64,000 bases of DNA from contig JAUNLK010000001.1 in the NCBI GenBank assembly GCA_030535395.1, positions 124,001 through 188,000 of the forward strand, given 5' to 3'. Origin of the DNA: Tissierellia bacterium (GTDB lineage Bacteria; Bacillota; Clostridia; Tissierellales; Peptoniphilaceae). The position numbers were made by a program, and so were the translations under genes. Shown in pieces: positions 52,539 to 60,572 of the stretch. The notes under the pieces are model-generated. The model saw only the letters and a list, made by a program, of their open reading frames with translations. It was not told the origin of the DNA and ran no database searches. The first letter of the stretch is position 1. Every line of letters starts with the position of its first letter.

Positions 52539-54083
52539 TTATAGAGGCACATTGCCGTGCTTTTTCTGGGGCAGGGATTCCCGCTTGGAAAGGAGCATAT
52601 CCAGGGCATCGGCAATGCGAATGCGGGTGTCCTGAGGCTCGATGACATCGTCTACATAGCCACGCTCTGCAGCCTTATAGGGGGTTGCAAATTCGTGTTT
52701 GTACTCGGCGATTTTCTCCTGCCGGGTTTGCTCGGGATTATCGGAAGCCTGAATGGCCTTTTTGAATACGATATTGGCGGCCCCGTCGGGTCCCATAACG
52801 GCGATTTCAGCATTGGGCCAAGCCATGACAATGTCGGCCCCCAGTTCCTTGGAGCACATGGCGAGATACGATCCACCATAGGCCTTCCGAAGGATGACCG
52901 TCACCTTGGGCACGGTGGCTTCACTGTAGGCGTAGAGCATCTTGGCTCCGTGGCGGATGATGCCGCCGTACTCCTGGGTGGTGCCGGGGAGGAAGCCCGG
53001 TACGTCCACGAGGTTCACCAGGGGAATATTGAAGGCATCGCAGGTGCGGATGAAGCGACTGGATTTATCGGAGGCGTTGATGTCCAGTGTGCCCGCCATA
53101 AATGCCGGCTGATTGGCGATGATGCCCACACTCTGTCCGTTGATCCGGGCAAAGCAGGTGACGATGTTCTTGGCGTATTCTGCCAGGTATTCGTAGTAGA
53201 AGCCATCGTCCACCAGAGCTTCAATGATTTCCTTCATGTCGTAGGGTTTGTTGGGATTGTCGGGCATGAAGTCGTTGAGGTGAGCGAGTTTGGTGTTGAT
53301 ATTGAGGGCTTCCTCGTAAACGGGAGCCAGTTCCCGGTTGTTGGAGGGAAGGAAGCTCAAAAGCAGTTTAATTTGGTCGATACAGTCCTTGTCGTCGCTT
53401 GCCATAAATTGGCTCACACCGGAAACGGAGTTGTGGGTGTAGGCGCCGCCCAGGGCTTCAGAGGTCACTTCTTCCCCGGTGACGGATTTAATGACCGCAG
53501 GACCGGTGATGAACATTTGAGAGCTCTGATCCACCATGTAGACAAAGTCGGTGAGGGCGGGAGAGTAGACGGCACCACCGGCGCAGGGGCCCATGATGGC
53601 GGAGATTTGTGGAATCACGGCACTGGCCATGACGTTTTGATAGAAGATTCTTCCGTAGCCGGAGAGGGCATCCACTGCCTCTTGAATCCGGGCACCACCG
53701 GAGTCGTTCATGCCCACAATGGGTGCGCCCATTTTCAAGGCCAGTTCTTGAACTTTAACGATTTTTGCAGCGTGCATTTCCCCCAGGGAGCCACCGGTAA
53801 CGGTGAAGTCCTGGGCATAGGCATAGACCAGACGTCCGTTGACCTTACCGTAGCCGGTGAGTACACCGTCGGTGAGGGGACGATTTTTTTCTTGGCCAAA
53901 GTTGTAGCATCTGTGGCGAACAAAGGCGTCCAGTTCCACAAAGCTACCCTCGTCAAAGAGGTATTCCATACGTTCACGGGCGGTCATCTTTCCCTTGGCG
54001 TGTTGCTTTTCAATGCGCTTGGCACCGCCACCTTGTTGGATCTCTTCCCGTAGAGAACGCAGACGTTCTAATTGTTCTGACAT
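52539..54083 (-). CDS. mmdA: Methylmalonyl-CoA decarboxylase alpha (carboxyltransferase)
   Basis: Transfers the free carboxylate of (S)-methylmalonyl-CoA to biotin, releasing propionyl-CoA. A 514-residue carboxyltransferase with both crotonase-like halves and the two oxyanion-loop regions, GSLGEMHAAKI with GMNDSGGARIQEAVDALSGY, and GGSYLAMCSKELGAD; PGFLPGTTQEYGGIIRHGAK is typical for the acyl-CoA group. Propionyl-CoA carboxylase beta subunits look alike, but no biotin carboxylase gene is present and a Na+-pump beta subunit is, so decarboxylation is the likely direction. Confidence 0.93.
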   Translation of the reverse strand: MSEQLERLRSLREEIQQGGGAKRIEKQHAKGKMTARERMEYLFDEGSFVELDAFVRHRCYNFGQEKNRPLTDGVLTGYGKVNGRLVYAYAQDFTVTGGSLGEMHAAKIVKVQELALKMGAPIVGMNDSGGARIQEAVDALSGYGRIFYQNVMASAVIPQISAIMGPCAGGAVYSPALTDFVYMVDQSSQMFITGPAVIKSVTGEEVTSEALGGAYTHNSVSGVSQFMASDDKDCIDQIKLLLSFLPSNNRELAPVYEEALNINTKLAHLNDFMPDNPNKPYDMKEIIEALVDDGFYYEYLAEYAKNIVTCFARINGQSVGIIANQPAFMAGTLDINASDKSSRFIRTCDAFNIPLVNLVDVPGFLPGTTQEYGGIIRHGAKMLYAYSEATVPKVTVILRKAYGGSYLAMCSKELGADIVMAWPNAEIAVMGPDGAANIVFKKAIQASDNPEQTRQEKIAEYKHEFATPYKAAERGYVDDVIEPQDTRIRIADALDMLLSKRESLPQKKHGNVPL

Positions 54084-54106
54084 ATTGTCCTCCTACTTCC
54101 TCTGGT

Positions 54107-54523
54107 TTATTCGGCTTTTTGGCAGAGCTCCACCAGGATGCCATTGGTTGCCTTGGGGTGCAGGAAGGCGATGTTGTTGCCGCCGGCACCGCGACGGGGT
54201 TTTTCATCGATGAGACGAATGCCCCGCTCTTTCAAGTCGGCCAGGGCTGCTTCCAAATTGTCCACCCTCAAAGCCACGTGTTGGATGCCCCCGCGGCCGC
54301 CGTTTTTGTCAATGTATTTTGCAATGGGTCCATCGGGAGCGGTGGATTCCAAAAATTCCAGCTCAGAATCTCCCAAGGGATAGAAGGCTGTGGTCACTTT
54401 TTGATCAGCTACGGTTTCCTTACCGTGGGATTCAATGCCCAGGACATCTTCAAAGAGCTCTTGAACGCTGTCCAATTCTGGAACGGCAATACCAATGTGA
54501 TCGATACCAGTTACCTTAAACAT
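54107..54523 (-). CDS. mce: Methylmalonyl-CoA epimerase
   Basis: Converts (R)- to (S)-methylmalonyl-CoA, linking the mutase to the decarboxylase. A 138-residue VOC-fold protein with metal ligands in GIDHIGIAV (His), GIQHVALRV (His) and ILVELCQ (Glu), and FLESTAPDGPIAKYI. The start is ATG at 54521-54523 behind AGGAGG; an in-frame upstream ATG near 54544 lies inside meaB and is not needed. Confidence 0.95.
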   Translation of the reverse strand: MFKVTGIDHIGIAVPELDSVQELFEDVLGIESHGKETVADQKVTTAFYPLGDSELEFLESTAPDGPIAKYIDKNGGRGGIQHVALRVDNLEAALADLKERGIRLIDEKPRRGAGGNNIAFLHPKATNGILVELCQKAE

Positions 54524-54533
54524 ATTTCCTCCT

Positions 54534-55469
54534 CTATTGTTCATCCCTCACGATGGTGCTGTAAATGGACTCCCCAATGGTGTAGGGGTCCGAGCCGCCG
54601 TGAACGGATGCTCTGATTTTTTCCTCGTACTTCTCTATTTCTTCGTCCACCAGATCCCTCAGGTCAGTCATGACATACTGTTCCACTTGGATCCTCTCTC
54701 GGTGGAAGCGCCGCTGTTCTTTTTTACCGGAGCGCTCCAGATAGTCCTGATGCTTGAAGATATTGTCCACAAGCTCTTCGATGCCCTCGCCTTCACTGGC
54801 GATGGCCATGGACACCGGAGGTCTGAATTCCCAGTTTTTGTTGAAGTCCAGCATCATTTCAATTTCGATGCGGGTCTTTCTCGCACGGTCGTTGTCGGCC
54901 TTGTTGACTACAAAGACGTCGCCAATTTCCATGATGCCCGCCTTAATGGCCTGGATGTCGTCTCCCAGTCCGGGCACCATGACCATAACTACGGTATCGG
55001 CGGTGTTCACAATGTCGATCTCCGACTGGCCCACCCCCACGGTTTCAATGAGGATGTACTCACAGCCATAGGCGTCCAGCACCTTGATCCCCGCTTGGGT
55101 GGCCTTGGAGATCCCCCCCAGAGATCCCCGAGTACCCATGGAGCGAATGAAGACGCCAGGGTCCAAGTTGAGATCGCTCATGCGAATCCGGTCCCCGAGG
55201 ATGGCTCCTCGGGTAAAGGGACTCGTGGGGTCGATGGCAATGATGCCAACTTTTTTGTCTTTCTTTCGCAGTGACTTGGCCACTTTGTCCACCAGGGTGG
55301 ACTTCCCAGCTCCGGGGGGTCCCGTAAAGCCGAGGACCACGGCGCTGCCGGTGTGGGGCTGGAGGTTCTTCAGTAGCTCGATGTAACCTTCTCGCTCGTC
55401 TTCCACCAGAGAGATGGCCCTCGCGCAGGCCACCTCATCCCCTTGGATGACTCTCTCCCACAGTTCCAT
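54534..55469 (-). CDS. meaB: MeaB/ArgK-type GTPase chaperone of the mutase
   Basis: G-protein that loads and protects adenosylcobalamin in methylmalonyl-CoA mutase. A 311-residue protein with the P-loop GFTGPPGAGKST at about 47-58, the switch segment DPTSPFTRGAILGDRIRM, TVGVGQSE and the guanine motif NKAD. Position between the mutase small subunit and the epimerase is typical. ATG at 55469. Confidence 0.95.
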   Translation of the reverse strand: MELWERVIQGDEVACARAISLVEDEREGYIELLKNLQPHTGSAVVLGFTGPPGAGKSTLVDKVAKSLRKKDKKVGIIAIDPTSPFTRGAILGDRIRMSDLNLDPGVFIRSMGTRGSLGGISKATQAGIKVLDAYGCEYILIETVGVGQSEIDIVNTADTVVMVMVPGLGDDIQAIKAGIMEIGDVFVVNKADNDRARKTRIEIEMMLDFNKNWEFRPPVSMAIASEGEGIEELVDNIFKHQDYLERSGKKEQRRFHRERIQVEQYVMTDLRDLVDEEIEKYEEKIRASVHGGSDPYTIGESIYSTIVRDEQ

Positions 55470-55492
55470 TTGCCACCTCCCCTTCTAGAGAT

Positions 55493-55894
55493 TTATTTTT
55501 CCTTGACGTTTTCTTTGATGAATGCGATGACATCTTCCAGGTTGGTCCCGGGAGTGAATACTTCCTCGATCCCAGCGTCCTTGAGGCCTGGGATGTCATC
55601 GGCGGGAATGACCCCACCTGCAAAGACCAACAGCTCGTCGTAGATGTTCTTTTCCTTGAGCTGCTCCACAATGGCGGGGAGCAGATAGTTGTGGGCACCG
55701 GAGAGGATGCTCATGCCTACGGCATCCACGTCCTCTTGAACGGCAGTTGCTACGATTTGTTCAGGTGTTTGACGAAGTCCGGTGTAGATGACTTCCATAC
55801 CAGCGTCTCTCAGTGCACGGGCAATGACTTTTGCACCGCGGTCGTGTCCATCCAGTCCCGGTTTTGCTACTAATACTCTAATTTGACGATCCAT
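55493..55894 (-). CDS. Methylmalonyl-CoA mutase B12-binding subunit
   Basis: A 133-residue cobalamin-binding subunit. The base-off/His-on motif Asp-x-His-x-x-Gly is at 15-20 (LDGHDRG), followed by SILSGAHN and the VFAGG loop that cradle the nucleotide tail. Together with the 560-residue upstream gene it makes a split mutase, as in archaea and many clostridia, rather than a single long chain. 19 bases separate the two genes. Confidence 0.95.
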
Positions 55895-55913
55895 AATATC
55901 CCCCTAATTCTCT

Positions 55914-57596
55914 TTACAGCTGAACGGTCTGCTTGTATTCGCCGAATACATTTCTCATGCGGTCACAGATTTCCTGCAGGGTTGCATAGGCGTGAACGGC
56001 ATCGAGAATGTAGGGCATGAGATTGTCATCCGTAGCAGCGGCTTTTTCCAAGGCGTCCAAAGTTTCAGCAACTTTGTCGTTGTCCCGTTTTTCTTTGAGT
56101 TCTTTGATCTTCTTGACTTGGTTTTCCCCAACGGAGGGATCCACCTTGAGGAGTCCTTCGGGAGCAGCTTCTTCCACGGTGAACTTGTTCACGCCAACGA
56201 CGATTTCGCCACCGTCGTCCACGGCCTTTTGGTATTTGTAGGCGGATTCCAGGATTTCCTGTTGGATGAAGCCCTTGTCGATGGCTGCGGGTGCGCCTCC
56301 CAGTTCGTCGATCTTGTTGATGAGGGCTTCGGCTTCCTTCTCAATTTGAAGGGTCAAAGATTCTACGAAGTAGCTTCCTGCCATGGGATCTACCGTGTCA
56401 GTTACGCCAGATTCAAAGGCAACGATTTGTTGGGTACGAAGAGCGGTACGAACGGATACTTCCGTGGGCAGTGCCAGAGCTTCGTCCTTGGAGTTGGTGT
56501 GTAGGGATTGGGTTCCGCCCAGTACGGCGGCCATGGTTTGGATGGCAACCCGTACCACGTTGTTTTCCACCTGTTGGGCAGTGAGGGTGGAGCCTGCGGT
56601 CTGGGTGTGGAATTTGAGGCGCTGAGCCTTCAGGGACTTGGAGCCAAAGCGCTCTTTCATGATCCGAGCCCAGAGTTTCCGAGCGGCACGGTATTTTGCA
56701 ATTTCCTCGAAGAAGTTGTTGTGTGCGTTGAAGAAGAAGGAGAGGCGGGGGCCAAAGGCATCCACGTCCAGGCCAGCTTTGACGGCGGCCTCTACATAGG
56801 CAATCCCGTCGGCCAGGGTGAAGGCCACTTCTTGAACGGCGGTGGAACCAGCTTCACGAATGTGGTAGCCGGAGATGGAGATGGTGTTCCACTTGGGTAC
56901 TTCTTGGGTGCAGTATTCAAAGATGTCGGTAATGAGACGCATGGAGGGTCCTACGGGGAAAATGTAGGTTCCGCGAGCGGCATACTCTTTCAAAATGTCG
57001 TTTTGGATGGTACCGCGGAGTTTTTCCTTGGAGACCCCTTGCTTTTCAGCAACGGCAATGTACATGGCCAGAAGCACCGATGCGGGCGCGTTGATGGTCA
57101 TGGAAGTGGACACCTTGTCCAGGGGAATCTCATTGAAGAGGATTTCCATGTCGGCCAGGGAGTCAATGGCCACCCCCACCTTACCCACTTCACCTTGGGC
57201 GATGGGTGCATCGGAGTCGTAACCCATTTGGGTGGGCAGGTCGAAGGCCACGGACAGACCGGAGCCGCCACTTTCCAGGAGGTATTTGTAGCGCTTGTTG
57301 GATTCTTCAGCGGTGGCAAATCCAGCGTACATCCGCATGGTCCAGGGTCTGGAGCGGTACATGGTGTTTTGAGCCCCGCGGGTGAAGGGATATTCACTGG
57401 GATAGCCCAAGTCTTCCATGTAGTCGAAGCCAGCTTCTTCCAGATCTACTGGAGTGTAGAGGCGTTTGATTTCAATTTCAGAAGAGGTTTGGAATTTTTC
57501 CTTTCTCTCGGGGAATTTTTCCAAGCCCTTGGCCACTTTGGCGTCAAATTCTTCCGATGCGCTTCTGATGGCATCAATTTTATCTTTTTCAAACAT
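55914..57596 (-). CDS. Methylmalonyl-CoA mutase catalytic subunit
   Basis: Adenosylcobalamin-dependent rearrangement of succinyl-CoA to (R)-methylmalonyl-CoA. The 560-residue TIM-barrel subunit shows [55 protein letters not shown] and the MAGSYFVE stretch. The family also contains isobutyryl-CoA and related mutases; the epimerase and decarboxylase genes beside it make methylmalonyl-CoA the most likely substrate. It lies 30 bases below the CoA-transferase gene. Confidence 0.93.
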
Positions 57597-57626: not shown

Positions 57627-59135
57627 TCAGTTTTCTGTGCTTTCCGGCATCATGCTGCCCGTTGCGGCCAGGCGGCTGTGCCAGCTCAAGGCTTCATCTA
57701 ACAGATGAGGAATGTGTCCGCCCTTTTCCTTGGCCCGGTTGAGATAGTCTCTCAGAGCCTCGCGGTAGTCGGGGTGGGCGCAGTTTTCAATGATTGCTTC
57801 CGCCCGCTCGATGGGATCCAGGCCTCGAAGGTCGGCGACCCCCTGCTCGGTGACAATCACCATGACATCGTGTTCGGTGTGGTCGTGGTGGCTGACCATG
57901 GGTACGATGGAAGAAATCTTGCCGTCCTTGGCAGTGGATGCAGTGGTAAAGATGGAGATGTAACCATTGCGGGCAAAGTCACCGCTGCCACCAATACCAT
58001 TCATCAGTTTGGTCCCGGAGATGTGGGTGGAGTTTACATTGCCGTAGATGTCCGCTTCAATGGCGGTATTCATGGCGATGACACCCAGACGACGGGCAAT
58101 TCCGGGGTTGTTGGAAATTTCCTGAGGTCTCAGGATGATCTTGTCCTTGTACTTGGGAATGTCCTCGGCAAGCTTGGCGGCCTTGTCGGGTCCCAGGGTG
58201 ATGCTGGTGCCGGAGGCGAAGTCCACTTTTCCAGCGTCGATGAGGTCAAATACGGAGTCCTGAAGGACTTCGGAGTACACCGTCAGGTGTTCAAATTTGG
58301 AATCGGCCAGACCCCCCAGTACGGCGTTGGCCACGCTGCCAACCCCCGATTGCAAGGGCAGGAGATTTTCCGGCAGACGACCGGCTTCCACTTCCCCTTC
58401 CAAAAAGCCGATGAGGTTTTGGGCCATTTTCCGGCTGATGTCATCGATGGCGGCCACGGGACGGGTGCGGTCGGGCACATCGGATTCCACTACGGCGATG
58501 ATCTTGTCAGGGTCGCAGGGAATATAAGTAGTTCCAATTCGGTCGTCCGTCTTCATCAGGGGAATCTCCCTGCGGTGGGGCACCTTGGGCACATCGTAAA
58601 TGTCGTGAACCCCCTCCAGCTCTGGCGGCTGAATGGTGTTGACCTCTACGATGACCTTGTCGGCCACTTCCACAAAGACATTGCTATTGCCCACGGAGGT
58701 GGTGGGAATGATATTCCCCTCTTCCGTAATGGCCAGAGCTTCCACTACTGCATAGTGGATGGGACCATAGAAGCCCGCCTTAAATTGTTGGGACGAGTGG
58801 GACAGATGGGCATCGGCATAGTGGATTTTTCCCGAATTGATTTGTTTTCTGATACTTGCGTTGGTGTGGTAGGGGAATCTGCGGGCAACGGCACCGCTCC
58901 CTGCCAGTACTTCGTCGATCTCCGGGCCAACGGAGGCACCGGTCATGACAGTCAGGGACAAGTCTTCACCGGACTCCTGACGCTTTGCCAGAGCCACGGG
59001 AAGCACTTTGGGGTATCCGGCCGGGGTGAAGCCACTCATTCCCACGGTACTACCGGCATCAATGAGTTTCGCGGCCTCCTCGGCGGACATCACTTTGTCC
59101 TCAAGAGCTTTGCAACGCATTCTCTCCTTGTTCAT
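57627..59135 (-). CDS. Succinate/propionate CoA-transferase (Cat1/AarC family)
   Basis: Moves CoA between acyl-CoA and a carboxylic acid. The 502-residue protein belongs to the acetyl-CoA hydrolase/transferase family. Glu289 in TVYSEVLQDS corresponds to the catalytic glutamate of AarC-type enzymes, and NGIGGSGDFARNGY and TEQGVADLRG are family blocks. In this operon it would pass CoA from propionyl-CoA to succinate, feeding the mutase and releasing propionate without ATP cost. Acetate as partner is also possible. Confidence 0.88.
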   Translation of the reverse strand: MNKERMRCKALEDKVMSAEEAAKLIDAGSTVGMSGFTPAGYPKVLPVALAKRQESGEDLSLTVMTGASVGPEIDEVLAGSGAVARRFPYHTNASIRKQINSGKIHYADAHLSHSSQQFKAGFYGPIHYAVVEALAITEEGNIIPTTSVGNSNVFVEVADKVIVEVNTIQPPELEGVHDIYDVPKVPHRREIPLMKTDDRIGTTYIPCDPDKIIAVVESDVPDRTRPVAAIDDISRKMAQNLIGFLEGEVEAGRLPENLLPLQSGVGSVANAVLGGLADSKFEHLTVYSEVLQDSVFDLIDAGKVDFASGTSITLGPDKAAKLAEDIPKYKDKIILRPQEISNNPGIARRLGVIAMNTAIEADIYGNVNSTHISGTKLMNGIGGSGDFARNGYISIFTTASTAKDGKISSIVPMVSHHDHTEHDVMVIVTEQGVADLRGLDPIERAEAIIENCAHPDYREALRDYLNRAKEKGGHIPHLLDEALSWHSRLAATGSMMPESTEN

Positions 59136-59149
59136 TAAAACCCCCTAAT

Positions 59150-59482
59150 CTACTCTTCTCCGATCTCTTGAGCGCTATTGAGCTGCTGCAATTTTTCGTA
59201 GCAAATGTTGATGGCAGACACAATGGCTTTTTTGGCAGCGCCAAAGTATACACTCTCGAATTCGCTGATGAGCTTCTCAGGTTCCAGTAAACTGTGACCC
59301 ACAATGTGCTCAGATACGAACTCGACGGCAACTTTCGTAGCCAGGGAGCACTCCGCTTTCTCTATGATTCCGGTATCGCGATCCAATACAATTGCTAAAA
59401 TTAACACACCATACAAATCGTATGCCGTAGTCCCTTTGGGCAGTTTTGCATAGGCTGAAATGAAAATAGAATTGTTGTTCAC
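59150..59482 (-). CDS. DUF3870 family protein, first gene of the operon
   Basis: A 110-residue cytoplasmic protein. AYAKLPKGTTAYDLYGVLIL, the stretch VLDRDTGIIEKAECSLAT and YFGAAKKAIVSAI match the DUF3870 family of Firmicutes, of unknown function. No catalytic motif is evident. The start is GTG at 59480-59482, five bases from GGAGG; the in-frame ATG four codons up overlaps the ribosome site. It lies 14 bases above the CoA-transferase start and directly below a leader with a terminator, so it should be co-regulated with the mutase and decarboxylase. Confidence 0.8.
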   Translation of the reverse strand: MNNNSIFISAYAKLPKGTTAYDLYGVLILAIVLDRDTGIIEKAECSLATKVAVEFVSEHIVGHSLLEPEKLISEFESVYFGAAKKAIVSAINICYEKLQQLNSAQEIGEE

Positions 59483-59528
59483 GAGTACCTCCATAAAAAA
59501 TGTTTTCCCACTGGGTAAAAAATTTACA

Positions 59529-59660
59529 CAAAAAAAGGAAACCGCATGCAGGACATGACGCCCCTTTTATGGAGTGCTGCCACTGGCGTTTCCGATCGAC
59601 TTCCCCGAACTGCAATTTGGCGATTGCTGAGAGAAATCAGGCTGGCCAATATTTCATTGT
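59529..59660 (-). promoter_or_regulatory. Candidate leader RNA with terminator before the propionate operon
   Basis: About 130 transcribed bases without a reading frame. The 3' end is a terminator: GGAAACGC (59586-59593) pairs with GCGGTTTCC (59537-59545, one bulge) and is followed by TTTTTTT (59530-59536). The 45-base loop holds a second hairpin, AGTG-GCAG-CACT. The 5' half can form TTGGC/GCCAA around a CTGA/TCAG hairpin, or GCAAT/ATTGC, which share bases. TGCAG and CTGCA may pair across the whole region. It does not show the conserved blocks of the cobalamin riboswitch, which I looked for because the operon needs B12. Not recognised as any class I know. Confidence 0.6.
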
Positions 59661-59666
59661 GACTAC

Positions 59667-59695
59667 AGATTACCACAAACTTTAAGCTATGTCAA
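59667..59695 (-). promoter_or_regulatory. Promoter of the succinate/propionate operon
   Basis: A perfect TTGACA and TAATCT are separated by 17 bases, with TG one base upstream of the -10. Transcription would start near 59660 and run through the leader RNA into DUF3870. Confidence 0.8.
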
Positions 59696-59807
59696 AAGAA
59701 GATCCAAAAAAAATTGGAAAATTTTAACGCCCCCTTTACCAAGACTTCCTGATGTTAAAAAAGAGTAATTTCACGAAGTTTATTTCACAATACTACCCCT
59801 TTTCAGT

Positions 59808-59851
59808 CGATTTCCCAGGGGCGAAAAAAGGGGCTAAAAAACGGGAAATCG
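59808..59851 (+). other. Large inverted repeat, terminator-like on plus strand
   Basis: CGATTTCCC (59808-59816) pairs perfectly with GGGAAATCG (59843-59851) around 26 bases, followed on the plus strand by TTTTT. An overlapping alternative pairs CCCCTTTT (59797-59804) with AAAAGGGG (59826-59833). There is no plus-strand gene ahead of it, so a terminator role has no partner; on the minus strand no T run follows. Confidence 0.45.
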
Positions 59852-60009
59852 TTTTTAAATCATAGTTTTCTTTATAAAATATCAAACATTCTCAATCTTT
59901 TCCAAAAAAATTTCACCTTAATCAAAATTGTTTTGATGTATACACTTTATCTTTTAAGCTCCATACAAAATACCAAGGTACAATGGAAAATTCCCTCCAA
60001 AACTCTCCC

Positions 60010-60090: not shown

Positions 60091-60290
60091 AGCTCCGCCC
60101 CCTGAGGAACTATGGAATCAAAATTCCGAGGAGATGTTTTTGTGCAGAGAGTAAATGATGGAAGCTTTCATCGGTACACCGTAAAGCCCAAAACTTCATC
60201 AAATAATTGCCGTGGACTTCCGCCCTCCTATCCTGCTTCCTGGCCCTCCATTTGTAAGGCGAAAAAGGCAGCAGAATTTTTCTAGCAAAA

Positions 60291-60467
60291 ATCTACTGTG
60301 GGACCCAGACCCCCGGGCAGAAATTCAGTATCAAAAAAATCCGTGAGAGGATATTTCCAAATCCCCGAGCGGAGATCCAGAATCAAAAAATCCGTGGTGG
60401 GACCCAGACGCTTTGGCAGAAATTCAGTATCAAAAAATCCGCTGAGGGATCCGGACCCCCAGCGGAT
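60291..60467. repeat. Degenerate tandem repeat, period about 48-51 bp
   Basis: Units at 60291-60338, 60339-60389, 60390-60436 and a partial one at 60437-60467. They share an ATC(C) start, a GTGGGACCCAGAC or equivalent block, a GCAGAAATTCAGTATC or ATCCAGAATC block, and an A5-7 end. Units one and three are closest; unit two is more diverged. On the minus strand every unit begins with a T run. There are no unique spacers between units, so this is not CRISPR. Confidence 0.7.
60431..60467 (-). terminator. Second terminator-like hairpin below tRNA-Leu
   Basis: ATCCGCT (60437-60443) pairs with AGCGGAT (60461-60467), with an inner GGG/CCC, and the minus strand continues TTTTTTGATAC. It falls in the last partial repeat unit and could act as a back-up terminator for the tRNA transcript. 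Confidence 0.55.
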
Positions 60468-60476
60468 ATAATGGAT

Positions 60477-60530
60477 GTAAAAAAATACGATGGCAGCCTG
60501 AATCCAAAGATTCAACACTGTCATCGTATT
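60477..60530 (-). terminator. Terminator of the tRNA-Leu transcript
   Basis: AATACGATG (minus-strand 5' arm at 60522-60530) pairs with CATCGTATT (60484-60492), with an inner TGAATC/GATTCA stem, and a T run follows. A further strong inverted repeat (GATCC...CACTTCCC with GGGAAGTG...GGATC) lies between it and the tRNA, at 60538-60568. Confidence 0.85.
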
Positions 60531-60572
60531 TCCCTTTGATCCCCCACTTCCCAAGGGAAGTGTGGATCACAC

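Follow-up and report, generated by a model that had tools for sequence, protein, structure and literature searches.

The minus strand of the window, that is, the whole 64,000-nucleotide stretch of DNA analysed here, carries the operon DUF3870-scpC-mutA-mutB-meaB-mce-carboxyltransferase, and between its promoter and its first gene lies a leader RNA running from about 59660 to 59529. The elements of this locus, in window coordinates, are:

59667..59695, minus strand: promoter, with the -35 box TTGACA at 59695-59690, a 17-nt spacer and the extended -10 box TGG-TAATCT at 59672-59667 (read from the sequence).
59645..59651, minus strand: 5' strand of helix P1, UAUUGGC, which pairs with 59587-59581 as the closing helix of the putative antiterminator.
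59597..59639, minus strand: hairpin P2-P3, supported by MFE folds, by homology to the related locus L010 and by an anatomy that covaries in 61 sequences.
59639-59630 with 59606-59597, minus strand: helix P2 (MFE folds).
59627-59623 (GCAAU) with 59616-59612 (AUUGC), minus strand: helix P3, with the loop CGCCAA at 59622-59617 (MFE folds).
59611-59607, minus strand: the larger, 3' internal loop of the P2-P3 hairpin (MFE folds).
59581..59587, minus strand: 3' strand of P1, GCCAGUG, within the 5' half of the terminator hairpin.
59530..59593, minus strand: intrinsic terminator with a branched upper part and a U7 tract at 59536-59530 (MFE fold and sequence).
59593-59586 (GGAAACGC) with 59545-59537 (GCGGUUUCC), minus strand: foot of the terminator (MFE fold and sequence).
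59150..59482, minus strand: DUF3870 gene (PF12986; Pfam, 78.3 bits), the first of the operon, with a likely GTG start at 59482; candidate trans-acting partner.
57627..59135, minus strand: succinyl-CoA:acetate CoA-transferase of the ScpC/Cat1 type, the second gene (Pfam; NCBIfam TIGR03458, 776 bits, and ScpC, 754 bits, both above the cut-off).
52539..57596, minus strand: mutA, mutB (B12-binding), meaB, mce and carboxyltransferase genes, a succinate-to-propionate module.

The DUF3870 gene is preceded by the Shine-Dalgarno motif GGAGG (59492-59488), and its GTG start is also consistent with two related loci, L010 and L011. In the propionate module the MM_CoA_mutase and B12-binding domains were identified by Pfam, and the assignment of meaB, mce (epimerase) and the carboxyltransferase is an inference from reading the ORF translations.

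The sequence-only reading had described about 130 non-coding bases that end in a hairpin plus T7 directly before the first gene, and this held for the minus strand: the non-coding stretch 3' of the promoter has about that length and ends in a long branched hairpin with T7 (59536-59530), 47 nt upstream of the likely start codon. The pairing strands of the hairpin foot can also be read as GGAAACGC/GCGGTTTCC, again followed by the T7. The promoter, called strong, is present, but the word is generous, since the -35 box is perfect and the extended -10 box TAATCT is weak, with three of six matches; the poor -10 box also explains why the promoter is missing from the automatic promoter-scan list. Transcription is inferred to start at about 59660. 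Two 5' hairpins sharing bases had also been proposed, and all the elements described are present. Finally, TGCAG and CTGCA, suggested to pair over the long loop, both exist and are complementary, but the pairing is absent from both same-subtype relatives (L010 and L011) and is therefore probably due to chance; the switching helix is UAUUGGC/GCCAGUG instead. As a separate candidate, a leader peptide MKYWPA in the window was rejected, as it has no Shine-Dalgarno motif and is not conserved.

Several other features were observed upstream of the promoter. A second hairpin with a T-tract at 59756-59853 (minus strand) obtains a weak score of 20.3 bits with one of our covariance models (R3, see below), and we infer that it is likely the end of another transcript. 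Between the leader and a solute-binding-protein gene there are three imperfect direct copies of a 61-nt unit (60287-60493), with an inverted repeat close by (60483-60531).

Taken alone, the window leader is no more structured than dinucleotide shuffles (fold z = -0.32 and -0.15), and the claim of a structured leader can therefore be decided only with relatives. DUF3870 is rare in the GTDB family that the window shares with the closest of these (f1, Peptoniphilaceae-like), being found in 7 of 130 genomes by a search with the window protein. The closest relatives, genome G016 (locus L010) and Ndiopella massiliensis (genome G145, L011), share the first two operon genes with the window and possess, in the same place upstream, a leader of like anatomy, i.e. 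a two-part hairpin followed by a terminator; all three leaders lie directly after promoters and ahead of first genes. The L010 and L011 leaders fold strongly (z = -5.2 and -8.4, respectively), and local alignment of the hairpin cores is significant both between the window and L010 and between L010 and L011 (z = 6.8 in each case, 0 of 1000 shuffles as good). Alignment of the window hairpin with more distant leaders is not significant, and blastn of the window leader against 40 relatives gave A/T-rich chance matches only.

A similar leader stands before the CoA-transferase gene or DUF3870 at DUF3870 loci of other families in the order. A search of GTDB contigs with a single protein alignment yielded three loci only and was hence replaced by whole-genome searches. 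When 249 genomes of the order were searched with a covariance model built from five leaders of the other-family loci (R1), about 20 strong matches were obtained, each of them next to DUF3870, CoA-transferase or carrier genes, and two further models (R2 and R3) extended this search. Together, the models from relatives found the RNA 68 times at 40 bits or more, in 48 clostridial genomes, with the common anatomy of the hairpin P2-P3 followed by an intrinsic terminator, whose position is kept and covarying among relatives. Across 61 distinct sequences, 91.5% of cells are paired and all 30 modelled pairs show compensatory change on both sides (covariation score 0.796 vs 0.290 for shuffles; 0 of 500 shuffles as good), and pairing drops to 37-49% when the partners are slid by 1-3 columns. 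This alignment was fitted to the structure, which favours the pairing score, but an unfitted MAFFT alignment of 20 sequences gives the same covariation picture. The pair-count control takes no account of relatedness, the E-values are rough owing to short calibration, and many of the genomes are draft metagenome assemblies. Conserved unpaired bases are few (U13, U15, the last C of the P3 loop and A71). Matches of 28-37 bits that lack P2-P3 were discarded as terminator-only false positives (G431, G390, G091, G112, G179, G005 and G019); they sit in genomes without DUF3870.

The element that would make this RNA a switch is the helix P1. In the family, a short strand directly 5' of the P2-P3 hairpin is complementary to the 5' arm of the terminator, and the two strands vary together (AUACC/GGUAU, UUACC/GGUAA, AGUCC/GGAUU, UGCC/GGCA, AAUACUG/CAGUAUU, AGUUG/CAGCU, GCUG/CAGC and UACUA/UAGUA; further types are ACC/GGU, GCC/GGC and ACUG/CAGU). 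Among 38 non-redundant leaders, P1 was better with its own than with swapped 5' strands (z = 4.4, 0 of 100000 trials as good); the signal is weaker within subtypes (z = 1.6 and 2.6), so shared ancestry contributes to the overall value. When the RNA is cut before the 3' arm of the terminator, the MFE fold is P1-P2-P3 in every leader tested, including L010, L011 and the window, whereas the MFE fold of the full-length transcript has the terminator in all leaders tested. P1-P2-P3 is therefore deduced to be an antiterminator and the element an attenuator. Moreover, the 3' strand of P1 in the window lies within the 5' half of the terminator, and hence the two structures are mutually exclusive. We regard the existence of the attenuator class as very likely, keeping in mind that the switch is inferred from sequence alone, with no termination data. 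A pseudoknot between CC of the P3 loop and GG of the terminator was also considered and was rejected as inconsistent between relatives by eye, P1 taking its place.

The window leader itself is not detected by R2 or R3, because it has a long, branched terminator and a P1 whose register differs from that in the relatives; L010 and L011 are detected by R3 (30.4 and 31.0 bits, respectively), and neither is in the training set of that model. By the criteria of the family the window nevertheless qualifies: it has the P2-P3 hairpin followed by an intrinsic terminator (by folds, and by hairpin homology to L010 at the z-score given above), its P1 reaches a pair probability of 0.75-1.0 in the truncated fold, and it adjoins DUF3870 and propionate/CoA-transferase genes. 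The P1 helix of the window is not significant by itself (347 of 5000 shuffles as good). As the models give no detection, membership rests on position, homology to one relative (L010) and shared anatomy. On this basis the window leader likely belongs to the DUF3870-linked leaders as their most divergent member, and probably represents an undescribed family of attenuator RNAs present in many clostridia.

The genes directly 3' of the leaders encode CoA-transferase, DUF3870, mutA, AspT/YidE-type exchangers, sodium:dicarboxylate symporters near GltP and a DASS-type carrier. Other leaders precede pairs of genes (DUF3870 and then the glutamate symporter GltS; a 2-hydroxyacid dehydrogenase and then glutamate dehydrogenase), an L-Ala-D/L-Glu epimerase-like enzyme, M20 peptidases, a DUF819-like carrier, or an AtoE-like carrier with thiolase and CoA-transferase; the DUF819 and AtoE calls come from reading of the sequence, and all other assignments rest on a profile match or a clear orthologue. 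What unites these genes is that they serve to take up and ferment glutamate or dicarboxylates, in many cases with propionate as the product. The sequence-only reading had guessed at a ligand linked to succinate, propionyl-CoA or B12. This is not supported and remains a guess; no ligand is known, and the wider set of led genes, together with DUF3870 as the constant partner, suggests a different or broader signal than B12 or succinate.

Three observations concern individual gene neighbourhoods. A 64-bit leader in G270 (L106:6314-6418, plus strand) is the odd one out, standing before an Mrp-type Na+/H+ antiporter operon far from DUF3870. A recurrent operon (L112:7716-9907, L117, L118, L120 and L217-L220) combines a dicarboxylate symporter, a class III aminotransferase, BKACE (beta-keto acid cleavage enzyme), DUF3870 and methylmalonyl-CoA mutase, and possibly represents an uncharacterised amino-acid fermentation route feeding propionate. 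At two loci (L146:1217-1394 and L154:1200-1374, plus strand) a cobalamin riboswitch (RF00174, 86 and 79 bits) precedes DUF3870, and the new leader comes after that gene; some B12-dependent propionate loci hence carry two different RNA controls in tandem.

DUF3870 is the partner that recurs most consistently. It is present in all 48 genomes with a leader of at least 40 bits, including those found first through strong RNA matches, and all 10 order relatives without a strong leader lack it. Among the 68 leaders, 32 start 22-112 nt after the DUF3870 gene, 5 end just before it, 21 lie within 5 kb on its strand and 10 are remote. The co-occurrence is thus partly trivial, most leaders being inside DUF3870 operons, with only the remote ones standing apart. 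In several genomes (G166, G167, G191 and G147) there are DUF3870 paralogues, and every one of them has a leader to itself. Methylmalonyl-CoA mutase accompanies the leaders less regularly, the full-length gene not being found in 6 of 51 genomes, in one of which (G194) it is cut by a contig end. No R3 match was obtained in 9 of 21 DUF3870 genomes of the wider class, nor in G206, G134 and G142, although divergent leader variants are likely.

Upstream of DUF3870 at four loci of the GTDB family f39 (L125, L126, L127 and L131) we saw by eye divergently oriented leaders that point away from the gene, in each of which one short hairpin and perhaps a P1 (UGUCG/CGGCA) precede a terminator; judged by eye, these are likely a variant missed by R3. 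A further case, in G036, is a DUF3870 match with two in-frame TAG codons (contig C9:6534-6779, L225) in a genome whose strong leader stands before mutA on another contig. The match would be either a pseudogene or an assembly or sequencing error, and it bears on whether DUF3870 is required.

The protein itself gives few hints. DUF3870 proteins are near neutral (median pI 6.5), and the AlphaFold2 model of the window protein (pLDDT 91.3, pTM 0.84) contains one conserved Lys-Ala helix (K89, A90 and G85; window 59150-59494, minus strand). Neither sequence nor fold comparison with PDB chains gave a significant match (fold E-values 0.016 and weaker), and no RNA-binding fold was found. The nearest shapes are an LplB-like domain (TM up to 0.53/0.65) and some IscU-like structures; as these are non-significant, no function is taken from them.

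The sequence-only reading had also proposed an unrecognised leader with a built-in terminator, in the layout of a riboswitch or protein-controlled attenuator and of no known class, and this held. Two of the checks it suggested were run: a covariance model from leaders upstream of DUF3870 and cat1 genes showed strong covariation, as described above, and comparison with Rfam gave no family match for the window or for 19 related loci. For the window, Rfam 15 at gathering and permissive thresholds returned nothing relevant, with no hits in the window search and only chance matches in the leader region, and no match to the cobalamin riboswitch or T-box, and none of the related loci came near threshold. 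In the literature searched, DUF3870 is mentioned only in unrelated work, no study of the family was found, and the term 'glutamate riboswitch' does not occur; the text of surveys of attenuators and structured RNAs and of an orphan-riboswitch review describes no matching motif, an unnamed motif in a supplementary list not being excluded. As a kind, the element is a transcription attenuator, and as a class it appears to be new.

Its resemblances to known systems are nevertheless instructive. In the PyrR-controlled pyr attenuators of Bacillus subtilis, a regulator gene is followed by an attenuator and further copies stand before other units (PMC7430163). The new attenuators likewise occur before, after and beyond a small-protein gene, several per genome, and combine a hairpin with mutually exclusive antiterminator and terminator. 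In contrast to that system, they have no PyrR-site motif in the loop and no pyr genes (the window operon is not pyr), their hairpin belongs to the antiterminator itself, in contrast to the PyrR site, which is an anti-antiterminator, and DUF3870 is not a phosphoribosyltransferase by Pfam. As in the RAT elements of BglG, LicT and GlcT, an irregular hairpin with internal loops overlaps the 5' arm of the terminator and would be stabilised by a trans-acting protein, a role we infer for DUF3870; unlike RAT, the new leader is about twice as long and has no sequence match (best 26.4 bits vs a gathering score of 80), and no PTS, PRD or BglG-type genes occur among the led genes. With terminating riboswitches of the preQ1-I and fluoride types it shares a compact 5' leader whose closing helix is common to the terminator 5' arm, but it differs in having very few conserved unpaired bases, a strict tie to one small-protein gene and no Rfam match.

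We propose that the leader is an attenuator read by DUF3870, and we give this full claim a probability of roughly 0.5, as it is inferred and there is no direct evidence of RNA binding. By sequence and covariation, the 5' end of the emerging leader folds as one irregular arm, P1-P2-P3, with P1 taking bases of the terminator 5' arm. If the arm holds, RNA polymerase would read through; if it fails, the stronger terminator hairpin would form and transcription would stop before the first gene. The balance would most likely be tipped by DUF3870, whose binding to the P2-P3 arm would depend on a metabolite of the network that leads from glutamate and C4-dicarboxylates to propionate. From the layout we guess that binding stabilises the antiterminator and turns the switch on. 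In the manner of PyrR or LicT, DUF3870 would then control its own gene or the next, together with a small number of remote units. The scarcity of conserved unpaired bases speaks for a protein reader, as in many protein sites.

The rival that survives best is a metabolite riboswitch, in which P1-P2-P3 itself has a small-molecule ligand (glutamate, 2-oxoglutarate, a C4-dicarboxylate or a CoA ester) and DUF3870 is just one more gene of the regulon. It is supported by the classic layout of aptamer plus terminator at the 5' end of the transcript, with P1 common to both, and by the metabolic theme of the led genes (GltS, glutamate dehydrogenase, GltP/DctA-type, DASS and AspT-type carriers, the L-Ala-D/L-Glu epimerase family, CoA-transferase and methylmalonyl-CoA mutase). 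Against it, unpaired positions other than the four named above are poorly conserved, in contrast to most aptamers; what recurs with the leader is a small protein and not one enzyme step; and the led genes also take in the Mrp antiporter operon and a peptidase. The riboswitch remains possible, and our preference for the DUF3870 reader is an inference, not a demonstration.

It is less probable that the leader is a constitutive partial terminator or stabilising 5' hairpin, in which the terminator sets stoichiometry by lowering expression from DUF3870 to the next gene and P2-P3 has no sensing role. Many copies do lie inside operons just 3' of DUF3870, and the terminator is always present in the full-length MFE fold. 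However, P1, P2 and P3 show covariation across families and persist in 5' leaders and intergenic copies alike, a plain terminator would need no conserved hairpin with a complementary 5' strand, and in the window, L010 and L011 the leader comes straight after a promoter and ahead of a first gene; we consider this explanation unlikely. A known class that has diverged beyond the reach of Rfam (T-box, PyrR site, BglG/LicT RAT, cobalamin riboswitch or leader-peptide attenuator) is very unlikely, for although the CCAGA motif of the subtype is similar to a portion of the PyrR-site consensus ARUCCAGAGAGGYU (PMC7430163), the six-codon ORF MKYWPA lies near the start of the window leader and one locus (L058) has the weak bglG-cis-reg match mentioned above, neither the window nor the related leaders have an Rfam match at threshold, CCAGA lies in P1/P2 and not in a hairpin loop, no ORF or amino-acid run is conserved among relatives, and the cobalamin riboswitches at two loci are separate from the leader and upstream of it.

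The attenuator read by DUF3870 also permits a bolder reading, which we put forward tentatively and hold to be somewhat less likely than not: DUF3870 may be a new family of small, metabolite-sensing RNA-binding attenuation proteins that, with their cognate P1-P2-P3 elements, control amino-acid and dicarboxylate uptake and propionate fermentation across clostridia, paralogous DUF3870-leader pairs of a single genome serving different operons.

With the leader family, the cis-regulatory RNAs would gain a widespread class that has covariation support, and the conserved protein family DUF3870 would have its first functional lead. In anaerobes such as Peptoniphilaceae and other Tissierellales relatives, where the known regulators of propionate fermentation are few, the leader family suggests that glutamate, dicarboxylate and propionate metabolism have a layer of control in common, and it may expose a new bacterial control of amino-acid and organic-acid fermentation.
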